Positions 2,953-26,702 of a stretch of DNA of 28,718 nt are shown here, piece by piece; the stretch's first letter is position 1, and every line of letters starts with the position of its first letter. The stretch is from IMG/VR virus record IMGVR_UViG_3300032073_000170, positions 1 through 28,718 of that record; one strand, given 5' to 3'. The notes beneath the pieces were generated by a model. The model did not search any database. It was not told the DNA's origin and saw nothing but the letters and a program-made list of their open reading frames with translations. The DNA is from a virus. Both the position numbers and the translations under genes were made by a program.

Positions 2953-4305
2953 GTGAATATATCTAGCGCATTAATCAAACAGATTATTATGCTCCAGGAT
3001 GCTGATACCTGGAGTTACTTGCGCAAGCATTATCTTCCTACTGAGTACCATACCCTCTTTTCTATAATTGATGGACATTCTCAGAAATTTCATAAAGTTC
3101 CCACGTTTGAGGATCTTAAGTTTGAAATCCGAGACACAGCTTCGCGGGATAAACTTCTCGCCATTGAAGCACTTGATGTTGAGGCAGACCCTTCGATGCT
3201 GCTTCAGTATCTCAAGAATGAGTATACTCAAAAAGAGATTCTATACTCTCTTGAAAAATATATTGACTCCTCTATTTCTTTTGAAGATGCAGAAGAGTCA
3301 GTATCCCATCTGCACCAGATTGTTCTAGACATCGAAGAAAAAGTAGAACTAGAACAGCCGCAGGAAAGTATGCAACGTATTTCCCTGTTCCCGCCAGATG
3401 AGGAATTGGATAAGTACTTGCCCTTAGGTCTTAACACCGCCTTTGATGAAGAGTTTAAGTTTTCTCCCCGAGACTTGATTCTTGTCGGGGGTCGACGCGG
3501 GGCAGGAAAATCCATTACATGCTGTAATATAGCTAATAGTGTATTTGAAAGTGGAAAGTCGGCAATCTATTTCACCATTGAGATGGATAGTCGTGAAATT
3601 TTACAAAGATGTTGTGCCATTGCCACAGGTATTGCTCACGATAAACTTCGTAAGCGAACGCTCAGTGTTAAGGAGTGGGAAACTGTAGCAGCTTGGTGGG
3701 CGAATCGTTTCGTCGATGCAGATGAAAAACTGAAAGAGTATCACGACCATCGTGACTTTGAGAGATTACATTACGAACTTAAGACTAACTATGAGCTTCT
3801 CCCGACTCAACAGTTAGATGTAGTTTATGATGCTTCTCTTACAATTTCAAAGATTCGTGCTGAGTTGGATAAAAAAGTAAAAAGTGCAATGGATGTTGGA
3901 GTAGTTATTGTAGACTACATCAACCAAGTAAAACGTTCCAACCTACCATCTCGCGCAGGACAGTATGACTGGACTGAGCAGATAGAGGTAAGTAAAGCAT
4001 TAAAGTCTATGGCCCAGGAATATGAAGTTCCAATTTACAGTCCGTATCAAATTGATGCAACAGGTGAAGCTCGCTTTGCTAAAGGTATTCTTGATGCGGC
4101 AGATGCAGCTTTCACGATTGATACGTGGAAGACTGAAGATGCAGTTATGTCTTTTAATTGTACTAAAATGAGAAGTGGTAAAATGGGAACATTTACTTCT
4201 ACAATGAACTGGGAAAGCCTAAAGATTGGGCCAGATACAGCTCTTACACCAGATGAAAGAGAACAAGAAGAACATAAAACTGGCGAAGAAATAAACGACA
4301 TCTAA
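2953..4305 (+). CDS. DnaB-like replicative DNA helicase (SF4)
   Basis: This 450-residue RecA-fold helicase would unwind DNA ahead of the fork. An N-terminal helical part of about 160 residues precedes the motor domain. Walker A is GGRRGAGKS (179-187), the H1a-type acidic strand is 'IYFTIEMD' (about 205-212), Walker B is VVIVDYIN (Asp near 321), and a DnaB motif-4-like KSMAQEYEVP segment follows with an SPYQ in place of the usual polar Q motif. A charged C-tail ends the protein. It starts at GTG 2953 with CGGGGA a few bases upstream. The primase gene lies three genes downstream. No promoter is visible between the terminator at 2936 and this start, so expression may rely on read-through or on a promoter inside the preceding gene. 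Its TAA (4303-4305) lies in the AT-rich block upstream of P3. Confidence 0.88.
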   Translation: MNISSALIKQIIMLQDADTWSYLRKHYLPTEYHTLFSIIDGHSQKFHKVPTFEDLKFEIRDTASRDKLLAIEALDVEADPSMLLQYLKNEYTQKEILYSLEKYIDSSISFEDAEESVSHLHQIVLDIEEKVELEQPQESMQRISLFPPDEELDKYLPLGLNTAFDEEFKFSPRDLILVGGRRGAGKSITCCNIANSVFESGKSAIYFTIEMDSREILQRCCAIATGIAHDKLRKRTLSVKEWETVAAWWANRFVDADEKLKEYHDHRDFERLHYELKTNYELLPTQQLDVVYDASLTISKIRAELDKKVKSAMDVGVVIVDYINQVKRSNLPSRAGQYDWTEQIEVSKALKSMAQEYEVPIYSPYQIDATGEARFAKGILDAADAAFTIDTWKTEDAVMSFNCTKMRSGKMGTFTSTMNWESLKIGPDTALTPDEREQEEHKTGEEINDI

Positions 4306-4314
4306 AAATATTTC

Positions 4315-4343
4315 TTGACACTCCTGCTATTTTTTGGTATAAT
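4315..4343 (+). promoter_or_regulatory. sigma70-type promoter P3 for the primase-polymerase unit
   Basis: TTGACA (4315-4320), a 17-base spacer and TATAAT (4338-4343) followed by ATATC. The upstream block is AAAAATATTTC. The -10 lies in the loop of the inverted repeat at 4320-4364. Transcription should start near 4350, inside the loop or at the foot of its right arm. Confidence 0.85.
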
Positions 4344-4369
4344 ATATCTTCAAATGGCAGGAGTTTTTT
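4320..4369 (+). terminator. hairpin terminator with a promoter -10 in its loop
   Basis: ACTCCTGC (4320-4327) pairs with GCAGGAGT (4357-4364), and the stem continues with T4328.G4356 (wobble), A4329-T4355 and three T-A pairs (4330-4332 with 4352-4354), giving 13 pairs. The 19-base loop (4333-4351) holds the TATAAT of P3, and T4364-4369 forms a U-tract. The start codon of the next gene follows at 4370. Its ribosome site AGGAG (4359-4363) is in the right arm. RNA reading through from the helicase gene can form the whole hairpin; RNA begun at P3 lacks the left arm. Confidence 0.6.
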
Positions 4370-4666
4370 ATGGGGATTTTGTATGGATCGTTACGCCATG
4401 ATGTCACGGGAAGAAAGAAGCGTAATTATGCGCGAAAAACTAAGGTTAGCACGAGAGGGAGTATTCATGAGCCTCAACGAGTTAATTACCGCAGGTGTAT
4501 GCCTGAGTACCCCTCAGCTACCGACACAGCTGGAGTTGCCGCTAGGGTGGAAAGCCCACGTTATACGGGAACCCTCGTTAAGGGTATCGGAACCATGCAT
4601 AAATCCAATGCGATACCAATTATCAACGAAGAAGAAATGAAAGATTTAGCAAGGATGAGAAGATAA
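4370..4666 (+). CDS. small basic conserved phage protein, function unknown
   Basis: This 98-residue basic protein has an N-terminal RKKRNYARKTK-like patch (about 15-26), a middle 'YPSATDT' and a C-terminal 'GIGTMHKSNAIPIINEEEM' ending DLARMRR. From memory, similar C-termini occur in other phage replication modules, but I know of no assigned function. AGGAG (4359-4363) lies 6 bases before ATG 4370, and the TAA overlaps the next start as TAATG (4664-4668). This decides against the overlapping 85-codon frame starting at 4383. The basic patch suggests nucleic-acid contact. Confidence 0.75.
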   Translation: MGILYGSLRHDVTGRKKRNYARKTKVSTRGSIHEPQRVNYRRCMPEYPSATDTAGVAARVESPRYTGTLVKGIGTMHKSNAIPIINEEEMKDLARMRR

Positions 4667-4899
4667 TGCACGACGCACTTATGGAACATTGGAATACTCG
4701 TGATACTTGCCCCAACTGTGGAGAATATATGATAGGGGACGGATATAGTAATGGCAATCCTGTACGATGTCCTAATGCTCTAGAAGAAGACTGGTGGTAC
4801 TCCGAACCGGACAGCGGACCGTGGCTGTGTAGTATTGATGATGATTATGAGGAGCCTACCGAAATGGATGAGTGGGCTTCTTTTGACCCGGACTGCTAA
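4666..4899 (+). CDS. small acidic protein with possible zinc knuckle
   Basis: This 77-residue protein has CPNCG (about 15-19) followed by a further Cys near residue 35 in 'VRCPN' and another in 'WLCSIDDD', which could form a zinc ribbon. The C-terminal half is strongly acidic (DDDYEEPTEMDEW). It is coupled at both ends by TAATG overlaps, with the gene before at 4666 and the primase after at 4899. Its place directly before primase suggests a replication accessory role, but the sequence does not show one. Confidence 0.7.
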   Translation: MHDALMEHWNTRDTCPNCGEYMIGDGYSNGNPVRCPNALEEDWWYSEPDSGPWLCSIDDDYEEPTEMDEWASFDPDC

Positions 4900-5732
4900 T
4901 GAACGTAGAAGAGTTATTACAATCTAAGCAGGTTCCGTTTATACCGAAAGGTAAGGACTATGTAGTATCGTGTCTAAGTCCTGAGCACGACGATAGTAAC
5001 CCAAGTATGCGGGTTGATCAAATTACAGGCATATTTCATTGTTTCTCTTGTGGATACAAGGGAAATCTTTTTGTGCATTTTGGAGAAAAGGCAAGTTTTC
5101 TACACTTACGCAGGGAACTTATAAAGAAAAAAATTCGTGAAAAGAGAGCTGAAAGTGTGGGCTTGCCTTTTCCCCGAAGTGCATTACCTTATGTGGGTAA
5201 TTGGAGAAATATTAAGCCAGAAACCTATCGTAAGTTCGAAGCATTCCAAGAACATGAAAGTTTTATAGGCAGAATCGTATTTCCTATTCGTGATATGTCT
5301 GGGCGGATAGTTGCTTTCAACGCACGACATATGACAGGAGGTACCCCAAAGTATTTAATTAGCCCGCCTGGGGCACGAATGCCCCTCTTTCCGGCAAAGA
5401 TAGATTCTATACAAGCTAGTGTTATTCTTGTGGAAGGAATCTATGATATGCTTAATTTACATGACAAAGGGCTTACTAATGCGGTTTGTTGTTTTGGTAC
5501 TCGCAACATCAACGAGGAAAAACTATCAATTCTTCGGCTCCAGGGTATAGAAGAAGCCATCGTATTCTTTGATGGTGATGAAGCGGGTCAAACAGCCGCA
5601 ATAAAAGTTCAAGAGATGTGTGAGAATGTAGATTTGCTAACACGAAATATTAATATAGCAGATATAGACCCTGGCGCTCTTACTGAGAATCAAGTGGAGA
5701 AGTTAAAAAGTAAACTCTATAAAGGAGTATAG
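4899..5732 (+). CDS. DnaG-type DNA primase (CHC2 + Toprim)
   Basis: This 277-residue primase makes RNA primers for lagging-strand synthesis. An N-terminal CHC2 zinc site has C25, H30, C48 and C51 (CLSPEHDDSNPSMR, then FHCFSCGYKGN). The Toprim core has the conserved glutamate in 'VILVEGIYD' (E179) and DGDEAG with D225 and D227. There is no C-terminal helicase-binding or helicase domain, and it is much shorter than bacterial DnaG. It starts by TAATG overlap with the preceding gene and is followed by the polymerase after one base. Confidence 0.9.
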   Translation: MNVEELLQSKQVPFIPKGKDYVVSCLSPEHDDSNPSMRVDQITGIFHCFSCGYKGNLFVHFGEKASFLHLRRELIKKKIREKRAESVGLPFPRSALPYVGNWRNIKPETYRKFEAFQEHESFIGRIVFPIRDMSGRIVAFNARHMTGGTPKYLISPPGARMPLFPAKIDSIQASVILVEGIYDMLNLHDKGLTNAVCCFGTRNINEEKLSILRLQGIEEAIVFFDGDEAGQTAAIKVQEMCENVDLLTRNINIADIDPGALTENQVEKLKSKLYKGV

Positions 5733-5733
5733 T

Positions 5734-8004
5734 ATGACGAGCTTAAAGGTTGCTCTAATAGAAACCAAACCAAGTAGAACGAATTTCAAACAAGAATTTG
5801 ATGGTGCTTTTGAGTTTGATCAATTTCAACTCTGTTCAGACCCAAGTATTAAAAAAGTACTCAAGCGAGACTGTGATATTGATATTGACACAGACTTATA
5901 TGATTGGGTTATTTTAGTAGGGTCAGACGCACTTAAGTATTTTACTAAAATTAATTCCGTAACAGAATATTCTGGAAAGAAGGTAGAAGAAAAGTTTCTG
6001 CCTGTAATCAATCCATCAATGCTTGCTTTTAAACCGGAGGCCCGCAATACTTGGGAATCCTCAAAAGAAAACATCATTGCATATATTCGAGGAGAAATAG
6101 AAGAGGTCATTATCGATGATTCTATCGCCTTTGGTATTCAGGATACAGAGGAAGCTATTGCATTTCTCAAGAAAGCTATCAAACACCCCAGTACCTTTAT
6201 CGCACTGGACTCAGAAACTACTGGACTCTACCCTCGGGACGGTCATATGTTGGGTATTAGCCTTTGCTATGACGGGGCTACTGGGGCTTATATTGATACT
6301 GAATGTTTTGATGACAGAGTTGAGCAATTATTGGCAGAGCTATGCCGTAAAAAGACAGTAGTATTTCATAACGCAAAGTTTGATATTGCATTTTTTGAGT
6401 ATCACTTTGATATAGAATTTCCAAGTTTTGAAGATACCATGCTGCTTCATTACTTGATTGATGAAAACCCTGGCACACATGGCTTGAAACAACTATCGCT
6501 AAAGTATACTCCCTATGGAGATTACGAGAAGCCCATGTATGACTGGATTGATGAATATAGAAAAGAGCGGGGCATATTGAAAGCAGAGTTTCAGTGGGGC
6601 TCGATTCCTTTTGATGTAATGAAAACTTATGCTGCAATGGATGCCGTATGTACATCAATGATCTATCAAAAGTTTGTTAAGATCAAGCAGAATAAGAAGT
6701 TAGCATGGGTATACGATAACATTCTTATCCCAGGTTGCCGCTTCTTGATTGATACACAAGACAACGGAGTACCTTTTGATGCAGGACGACTACAAAAGTC
6801 TCAGTACCTTATGCAACACGACATTGATAATGCTATCATTTCTTTGTATGAGAATCCAAAGATTCGTCAGTTTGAGAAGTCAAATGATGGAGAATTTAAT
6901 CCAAATAGTACTGTTCAGCTTCGTAAGTTACTATTCGATTATCTAGGATTAAGGCCAACAGGCAAGAAAACAGGAACAGGCGCAGACTCAACAGATGCAG
7001 AAGTACTTAAAGCATTGGAGTCACAATCAGAGGTACCCGGACTTATTCTGGATATTCGACAAAAGTCAAAAATCAAGAACACTTACTTAGACAAGATTAT
7101 TCCACAGCTAAATAAAGATAGTCGTCTAAGAACAAATTTCAATCTACATGGCACTACTTCCGGCAGGTTGTCCAGCAGTGGTAAGTTAAATATGCAGCAG
7201 TTGCCTCGTGATAATCCTATTGTAAAAGGATGTATTAAAGCAGCTCCAGGTCATAAGATTGTAGCAATGGACTTGACTACTGCAGAAGTATATGTTGCAG
7301 CAAAACTTGCAGAAGATAATGCTCTAATGAATGTATTTCGTAGTGGTGGTAATTTTCACAGTACAATTGCAAAAACAGTTTTCAAATTATCCTGTGAAGT
7401 AGAAGAGGTAGCAGAGTTTTATGGAACACAAAGACAGGCTGCAAAAGCAGTAACATTTGGTATTATGTATGGCGCAGGGCCAAAGAAGATTAGTGAGCAA
7501 GTTACTAAGGATTCGGGCACTTACTTTAGCCAACAAGAGGCAAAAGAAGTTATTGATGACTATTTTGATTCCTTCCACAAACTAAGAAAGTGGATTGACA
7601 ACAATCAAAAATTTATTGAAGCAAATGGATTCATTTATAGTTTCTTTGGCCGGAAAAGGAGGTTGCCTAATGTTAAATCGTCAGACGCAGGCATCAAGAG
7701 TCATAGCATTAGGTCTGGTCTTAATTTTCTGGTGCAGTCTGCTGCTAGTGATATCAACTTGCTCGGTGCCATAGATATGGGACAGTTCATCAAGAGTCAA
7801 AGAATGAAGGCAAGAATCTTTGCTTTAGTACACGACTCAATTCTAGCAGAAGTTCCAGAGGATGAGATTGAGTTCTATTCAGAAATGTTACAGAAGTTTA
7901 TACAGATGGATAGAGGTATATCTATTCCAGGCGCTCCGGTTGGTTGTGACTTTGAAGTCGGAGAGGATTACTCAATGGGTAAATATGAGAAGTTCTATCT
8001 TTGA
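5734..8004 (+). CDS. polA: family A DNA polymerase with 3'-5' exonuclease
   Basis: This 756-residue replicative polymerase has three parts. Residues 1-125 resemble the uracil-DNA-glycosylase-like N-terminal domains seen on some phage polymerases ('YDWVILVGSDALKYF', then 'LPVINPSMLAFKPE') but lack recognisable catalytic motifs; this is a weak inference. The 3'-5' exonuclease has ALDSETTGLY (D159, E161), 'HNAKFDIAF' and 'YAAMDAVCT'. The polymerase domain has 'GTTSGRLSSSGKLNMQQLP' (about 473-491), motif A MDLTTAEVY with catalytic D513, motif B RQAAKAVTFGIMYG (R567, K571, F575, Y579) and motif C VHDS (H700, D701). Motif A differs from the usual DYSQIELR. F575 aligns with E. coli Pol I F762. AAAGGAG lies 8-10 bases upstream of the ATG. 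The stop overlaps the next start. Confidence 0.95.
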   Translation: MTSLKVALIETKPSRTNFKQEFDGAFEFDQFQLCSDPSIKKVLKRDCDIDIDTDLYDWVILVGSDALKYFTKINSVTEYSGKKVEEKFLPVINPSMLAFKPEARNTWESSKENIIAYIRGEIEEVIIDDSIAFGIQDTEEAIAFLKKAIKHPSTFIALDSETTGLYPRDGHMLGISLCYDGATGAYIDTECFDDRVEQLLAELCRKKTVVFHNAKFDIAFFEYHFDIEFPSFEDTMLLHYLIDENPGTHGLKQLSLKYTPYGDYEKPMYDWIDEYRKERGILKAEFQWGSIPFDVMKTYAAMDAVCTSMIYQKFVKIKQNKKLAWVYDNILIPGCRFLIDTQDNGVPFDAGRLQKSQYLMQHDIDNAIISLYENPKIRQFEKSNDGEFNPNSTVQLRKLLFDYLGLRPTGKKTGTGADSTDAEVLKALESQSEVPGLILDIRQKSKIKNTYLDKIIPQLNKDSRLRTNFNLHGTTSGRLSSSGKLNMQQLPRDNPIVKGCIKAAPGHKIVAMDLTTAEVYVAAKLAEDNALMNVFRSGGNFHSTIAKTVFKLSCEVEEVAEFYGTQRQAAKAVTFGIMYGAGPKKISEQVTKDSGTYFSQQEAKEVIDDYFDSFHKLRKWIDNNQKFIEANGFIYSFFGRKRRLPNVKSSDAGIKSHSIRSGLNFLVQSAASDINLLGAIDMGQFIKSQRMKARIFALVHDSILAEVPEDEIEFYSEMLQKFIQMDRGISIPGAPVGCDFEVGEDYSMGKYEKFYL

Positions 8005-9848: not shown

Positions 9849-9877
9849 TTGACAATAACCTTAATTTTTAGTATAAT
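9849..9877 (+). promoter_or_regulatory. sigma70-type promoter P4 for the long recombination-RNR unit
   Basis: TTGACA (9849-9854), 17 bases and TATAAT (9872-9877) followed by ATATG. The upstream block AAAAATAGTTC matches the other copies. The -10 lies 2 bases from the ATG at 9880. Confidence 0.85.
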
Positions 9878-26673: not shown

Positions 26674-26702
26674 ATTATAACAAAAGGGACATTTTATGTC
26701 AA
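26674..26702 (-). promoter_or_regulatory. sigma70 promoter with extended -10 for the tail-fibre unit
   Basis: On the minus strand, TTGACA (26702-26697), a 17-base spacer and TATAAT (26679-26674) with TGT directly before the -10 form a full consensus promoter with an extended -10 (TGnTATAAT). The leader before ATG 26653 is about 14 bases. It lacks the AATAGTTC block of the plus-strand family. Confidence 0.88.
26688..26700. promoter_or_regulatory. possible operator: perfect inverted repeat over the -35
   Basis: GACAT (26688-26692), TTT and ATGTC (26696-26700) form a perfect 5+3+5 inverted repeat covering most of the -35 hexamer and the start of the spacer. A repressor or activator bound here would block or affect RNA polymerase. 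A match of this size can also arise by chance. Confidence 0.35.

Follow-up and report, generated by a model that had tools for sequence, protein, structure and literature searches.

Late promoters lying within hairpins that sequester a ribosome-binding site have been described for T4 gene e, soc, 49, I-TevI, Aeh1 mobE and segB, and these hairpins are conserved across relatives (PMC3014915, PMC2988022). In this T4 type, RNA reading through from upstream folds into a hairpin over the Shine-Dalgarno sequence, and RNA started at the nested promoter lacks the 5' strand of the hairpin and is translated. The same behavior is predicted for the element analyzed here, which lies between a helicase gene and a gene of the phrog_27048 family in an IMG/VR virus record of a marine T5-like phage (the window, i.e. 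the whole stretch of 28,718 bases); its Shine-Dalgarno is computed to be paired in the read-through RNA and free in the RNA of the nested promoter. The promoter of the T4 type is a phage late promoter (TATAAATA, gp55-dependent) with a timing logic, whereas that of our locus, P3, is TTGACA-17-TATAAT, a perfect sigma70-type consensus of the same type as P1, P2 and P4 and common to its sister promoters. Moreover, no U-tract terminator is described in the accessible portions of the T4-type reports, whereas here the stem abuts a T-run in front of the ATG. The P3 element would work like the T4 type but is not a member of it by promoter type, and the U-tract makes its hairpin appear terminator-like.

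Like intrinsic (Rho-independent) terminators, the element has a stable stem with a G+C-rich base (4320-4332 paired with 4352-4364) directly followed by a U-tract (T4364-4369). Unlike them, it has a 19-nt loop that holds a complete -10 and it is placed upstream of, and overlapping, the ribosome-binding site of the next gene. The loop exceeds the limit of the simple terminator scan that we used, which missed the hairpin because only loops of 3-8 nt were allowed; an inner helix of 5 bp does, however, lengthen the stem. In the fold-back inhibition of IS10, transposase expression from outside transcripts is prevented by a structure that is absent from the element's own transcript, and the leader of IS200 carries a terminator and hairpins masking the ribosome-binding site as separate structures. 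To our knowledge, neither has a promoter nested in a terminator loop. Both are analogous in purpose to the P3 element, theirs being the protection of a mobile element; no transposase is guarded here, the downstream genes being that of phrog_27048, then primase and PolA. A literature search of partial coverage, mostly of papers open without subscription, returned no direct precedent for an intrinsic terminator that holds a complete promoter in its loop. The translational half of the arrangement is already known (T4 gene e, I-TevI, mobE); what appears to be new is that it is combined with a U-tract terminator and with a promoter of the host type, and that the combination recurs.

The left part of the window is a T5-type replication module in which a split NAD-dependent DNA ligase, a D5-like regulator and a DnaB-like replicative helicase (2953-4305, plus strand; phrog_19, E 2e-48, Pfam DnaB_C) are followed by the phrog_27048 gene (ATG at 4370, 4370-4666), a small ORF (4666-4899), primase (4899-5732) and PolA (5734-8004), all four on the plus strand, and by a D10-like helicase. 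The 64 bases separating the helicase from the phrog_27048 gene hold promoter, stem, AGGAG and T-run. P3 matches the consensus at 12/12 positions, with TTGACA at 4315-4320, a spacing of 17 bp and an extended -10 (TGG TATAAT, 4335-4343) whose TATAAT occupies 4338-4343. The hairpin stem, beginning 14 nt past the helicase stop codon, consists of 13 pairs between a left arm in the -35/-10 spacer (ACTCCTGCTATTT, 4320-4332) and a right arm (AAATGGCAGGAGT, 4352-4364), in the order A4320-T4364, C-G, T-A, C-G, C-G, T-A, G-C, C-G, the wobble T4328.G4356, then A-T, T-A, T-A and T4332-A4352. TATAAT lies within the 19-nt loop (4333-4351), where the RNA fold adds the inner helix (4336-4340 with 4344-4348). 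The Shine-Dalgarno AGGAG (4359-4363) is part of the right arm, and the six T residues at 4364-4369, five of them free since the first pairs with A4320, form both the proposed terminator U-tract and the spacer between Shine-Dalgarno and ATG. The initial annotation had read this inverted repeat, its wobble, the six T and the position of TATAAT exactly to the base, as well as the sharing of A4320 between the -35 and the left arm. From the position of the -10, the P3 RNA would start 7-9 nt further on, at 4350-4352 (the first purine being A4352), in either case past the whole left arm. Since the left arm is accommodated in the promoter spacer, the right arm in the leader with its Shine-Dalgarno, and the U-tract in the gap before the ATG, a complete unit boundary fits into 64 bases. 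No weight was given to a short palindrome inside the loop at the -10: in the sister promoters as well, the -10 consensus and the ATATAT after it are by themselves close to palindromic.

Folding of the RNA from 4310 to 4375, one of the checks proposed in the initial annotation, gave -21.2 kcal/mol (z -5.75), and 0/200 dinucleotide shuffles were as good; when only the spacer was shuffled, 0/200 reached the observed pairing energy. The annotation had also supposed that the AGGAG is hidden in read-through RNA and escapes in RNA started at P3, and folding predicts the same, with a probability of the window's Shine-Dalgarno being unpaired of 0.0002 in the former and 0.69 in the latter. Among relatives, it was computed to be fully paired in the read-through RNA of 47/47 distinct elements with stem and T-run (median unpaired probability 0.00), and in their P3 RNA the median was 0.44 with a minimum of 0.17, i.e. 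some are only partly free. A classical stem/tail terminator score was positive in 45/47 of these elements and in 0/36 others.

Relatives were fetched through the helicase and the downstream protein separately, ignoring the structure, and loci from a promoter-pattern scan were added. The 126 rows obtained after deduplication by helicase, which remain partly redundant as several differ only slightly in this protein, comprise 66 with stem and T-run, 3 with the stem alone, 41 with neither and 16 without such a promoter. Counted as distinct junction elements (93), stem and T-run occur together in 50, the stem only in 3, the T-run only in 1 and neither in 39. The promoter spacer is 17 bp in all 110 promoter-bearing rows. 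On the helicase tree the state with stem and T-run needs at least 4 changes, and the starred branches force at least 2, which would fit either an ancestral element that some clades have lost or an element gained more than once. Stemless relatives have an ordinary spacer between Shine-Dalgarno and ATG (e.g., GGAGGCTTTATG, GGAGAAAGCAAATG), and the 41 relatives with promoter and without stem show that the hairpin is not essential to the junction. In three stemless relatives (L037, L039 and L054), the -35 of the junction after the helicase sits in a short palindrome (TGACAT..ATGTCA, TTGACA..TGTCAA), which could be an operator.

In the stem-bearing relatives the arms diverge while remaining complementary. 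Relative to the window, L006 (ACTCCTGCTGATT/AATTGGCAGGAGT) shows a swap of T-A to A-T, and the arms of L278 (TCCTCACTGATTG/CAATCAGTGGGGA), L279 (ATCCCCGCTGATTG/CAATCAGTGGGGAT) and L065 (CCTCCTCTA/TAGAGGAGG) are more examples of changed sequence with pairing kept. RNAalifold recovered the same stem de novo from 40 distinct orthologous elements, an alignment that covers the stem variants upstream of the homologous protein and includes the poorly folding L256. In this alignment 91.9% of the cells are paired, compared with 86.3% after shuffling and 40-54% in slid registers, and 22 cells show a double change compared with 7.2 in shuffles (0/500 as high); both values are lowered by MAFFT, which places a few divergent stems one base out of register. 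When 49 elements were anchored on the stem, the three pairs beyond the search seed were paired in 49, 48 and 46 of them, against 39, 36 and 37 in shuffles, with 16, 8 and 18 double changes, respectively; the sequences share ancestry, and the shuffle counts therefore overstate their independence. Sequence change that keeps pairing across deep branches would be hard to explain otherwise than by a constraint on pairing. These data, which bear out the compensatory changes at constant promoter that the initial annotation had proposed to look for, indicate that evolution maintains the structure, through the pairing and not the sequence of the arms.

The structure does not follow the promoter type. 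The P3 consensus, composed of an A-rich stretch, TTCTTGAC, a T-rich spacer and GTATAATATAT, is found also at 351-379, 1344-1372 and 9849-9877 of the window, and these three sister promoters have neither stem nor T-run. At other junctions of the fetched loci (ligase 1, ligase 2, the 9880 gene and others), stem and T-run occur together in 0/174 distinct promoters, and only 5/174 have a strong stem. Given these unstructured promoters, the hairpin is not tied to the promoter type and belongs to the junction between helicase and phrog_27048. The three sisters carry AAAAATAGTTCTTGAC-N-GTATAATATAT as in P3 and are located at or next to the end of the upstream gene. Another perfect TTGACA-17-TATAAT, at 26674-26702 on the minus strand, lies between two minus-strand ORFs and is apparently outside the plus-strand set.

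Anatomy, conservation, compensation, the stem/T-run association and the predicted Shine-Dalgarno switch are computed for this junction, and on that basis we consider it probable that the element is a fused terminator and promoter that spares its own transcript, upstream RNA being terminated, leakage being untranslatable and P3 RNA escaping both. A polymerase arriving from the helicase gene would transcribe both arms, and the stem with its abutting U-tract would halt most of the polymerases immediately ahead of ATG 4370. Transcripts that escape this stop would have their AGGAG hidden by the stem, which would leave the downstream gene untranslated. The P3 RNA, beginning in the loop without the left arm, would form no hairpin and would be elongated and translated. 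With a 19-nt loop and 5 free T, the terminator would be a modest one. E. coli terminators located 17-18 bp from a stop codon have efficiencies of about 0.12-0.8, trailing ribosomes interfering (PMC4824070); because the stem here begins at 14 nt from the helicase stop codon, leakage is likely, and we infer a two-lock logic in which leakage past the terminator is caught by masking of the Shine-Dalgarno. The insulation of the two units put forward in the initial annotation would apply to the downstream RNA, which the element would protect, but not to P3 itself, which is not shielded from upstream polymerase since the stop point lies downstream of it. The polymerase of the host is assumed from the perfect match to read the sigma70 consensus. 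Promoter use, termination, translational block and the biological purpose of the element are likewise what we infer from comparison, which supports the mechanism well; the element itself is real, conserved under a pairing constraint and unusually recurrent.

Among the alternatives, the one that survives best is that the stem does no more than mask the Shine-Dalgarno from ribosomes, as is the case for T4 gene e and I-TevI, the T-run serving as an AU-rich spacer and little or no termination taking place. It would be in agreement with the predicted Shine-Dalgarno switch, with relatives in which the stem covers the Shine-Dalgarno without a T-run (L126 and L040/L083) and with the T4 precedents (PMC3014915, PMC2988022). 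However, a T-run of at least 5 nt abuts the stem in 50/53 stem-bearing elements of the helicase/phrog_27048 junction and is present in 1/40 stemless ones, and it is retained even where the ATG is thereby pushed at least 10 nt from the Shine-Dalgarno. At a different junction, on the minus strand of L138 (around 5271), a promoter lies in the loop of a stem GTGCCCA/TGGGCAC followed by T5 and the Shine-Dalgarno AAGGAG is outside the stem, i.e. a terminator-only variant. We thus hold masking alone to be unlikely. From the co-occurrence of stem and T-run and from the stem/tail score, termination is argued to be part of the function, in line with the terminator reading of the initial annotation.

The opposite simplification is that stem and U-tract only end the helicase unit, the overlap with promoter and Shine-Dalgarno reflecting compaction without a translational role. 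The stem/T-run association and the L138 layout point in this direction, as does the occurrence of another terminator-like hairpin upstream of the helicase in the same operon. This reading is quite unlikely in our view, as the Shine-Dalgarno is at the stem base in 47/47 distinct elements with stem and T-run and as some related phages keep the stem over the Shine-Dalgarno without any T-run. Another pairing of a promoter spacer with the leader is seen in L186 (minus strand, 1851; ATCTTCAATACA/TGTATTGAAGAT) and L150 (plus strand, 4201), where the Shine-Dalgarno is just outside the stem, no T-run follows and the products start with MRKPMGDRFY and MREPMGDRFY, respectively.

It is very improbable that the repeat acts as DNA, either as a cruciform or as a promoter-overlapping operator to which a dimeric regulator, for instance the D5-like protein, binds. 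The inverted repeat does overlap the promoter and some stemless relatives (e.g., L037, L039) have short -35 palindromes, but the complementarity of the arms is conserved and their sequence is not, G.U pairs are common, the T-run is strictly one-sided and the sister promoters lack the repeat. Both DNA readings were rejected on the ground that pairing, G.U included, is kept and arm sequence is not; the DNA cruciform at the -10 that the initial annotation had added as a further possibility found no specific support, frequent G.U pairs and a T-run fitting RNA and not DNA. Hardly credible, finally, is that the stem stabilizes the 3' end of the helicase RNA, or serves there as an RNase III site, and is irrelevant to the downstream gene; hairpins of this kind exist in phages, but they would explain neither the U-tract nor the constant placement of promoter in loop and Shine-Dalgarno in arm.

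The layout is not restricted to this family of phages. IMG/VR was scanned twice and the GTDB genomes once for a pattern consisting only of CTCC or CCTCC, TATAAT, then GGAG and a T-run. Among the matches listed, outside the window's family, strong stems were found in 56/61 cases with a -35 of at least 5/6 and in 45/165 with a poorer -35, and the six positions beyond the seed were paired at 73-87% and 45-59%, respectively. When these listed matches are counted by downstream-protein cluster, a good -35 remains associated with a strong inner stem (Fisher p ~1e-4 to 1e-3). At least about 25 downstream-gene clusters outside the family show the layout, mostly in unrelated phages, this figure being approximate as the proteins are short, linkage is by blastp and some clusters may be related phages. 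The layout precedes a metallophosphoesterase-like gene in L398 (TTGACAAAATCCTCCTAAGACGCTATAATGGCTGTCTTAGGAGGATTTTTTATG), an RNA ligase-like gene in L436 and an HNH endonuclease-like gene in L427 (minus strand, around 3156). The HNH case brings to mind the homing endonucleases that hairpins control in T4-like phages. In larger records of outside-family phages, the layout is found at one or a few junctions among several similar promoters. On balance, we lean towards the view that a compact boundary part has arisen repeatedly in phages: a complete sigma70-type promoter lies in the loop of an intrinsic terminator, the right arm carries the Shine-Dalgarno of the next gene, and the part stops and silences all upstream RNA but spares its own. 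Such parts would be common, and annotations would often miss them owing to the loop-length limits of terminator finders.

If true, the element would be a very small insulator of natural origin, with a single stretch of 55 bases ending a unit, blocking translation of leakage and starting the next unit, and it would show how compact genomes reuse the free bases of promoter and leader. Operon prediction in phages would be affected, as standard terminator scans miss the element, and a ready-made boundary part would become available for synthetic circuits. Since the layout recurs in front of unrelated genes, cultivable phages offer a direct test of the claim. For the window itself, near-identity and distant DNA searches of phage records returned essentially nothing, i.e. 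no cultured near relative. In the Vibrio T5-like phage VPT02, helicase and primase overlap, with neither the small gene nor the element, and homologues of the downstream protein in Delftia phage PhiW-14, phage C48C1 and a Synechococcus phage are in other contexts. Rfam gave no match at the gathering threshold in the window, and the tRNA scan was empty.

A second strong terminator-like hairpin (GCAACCG...CGGTTGC followed by T5) is located at 2905-2935, between the D5-like gene and the helicase, and no consensus promoter follows it. A strong hairpin occurs at this position in 20/20 relatives inspected, with a diverged stem sequence, so that expression of the helicase may come from polymerase passing a leaky terminator that is conserved.
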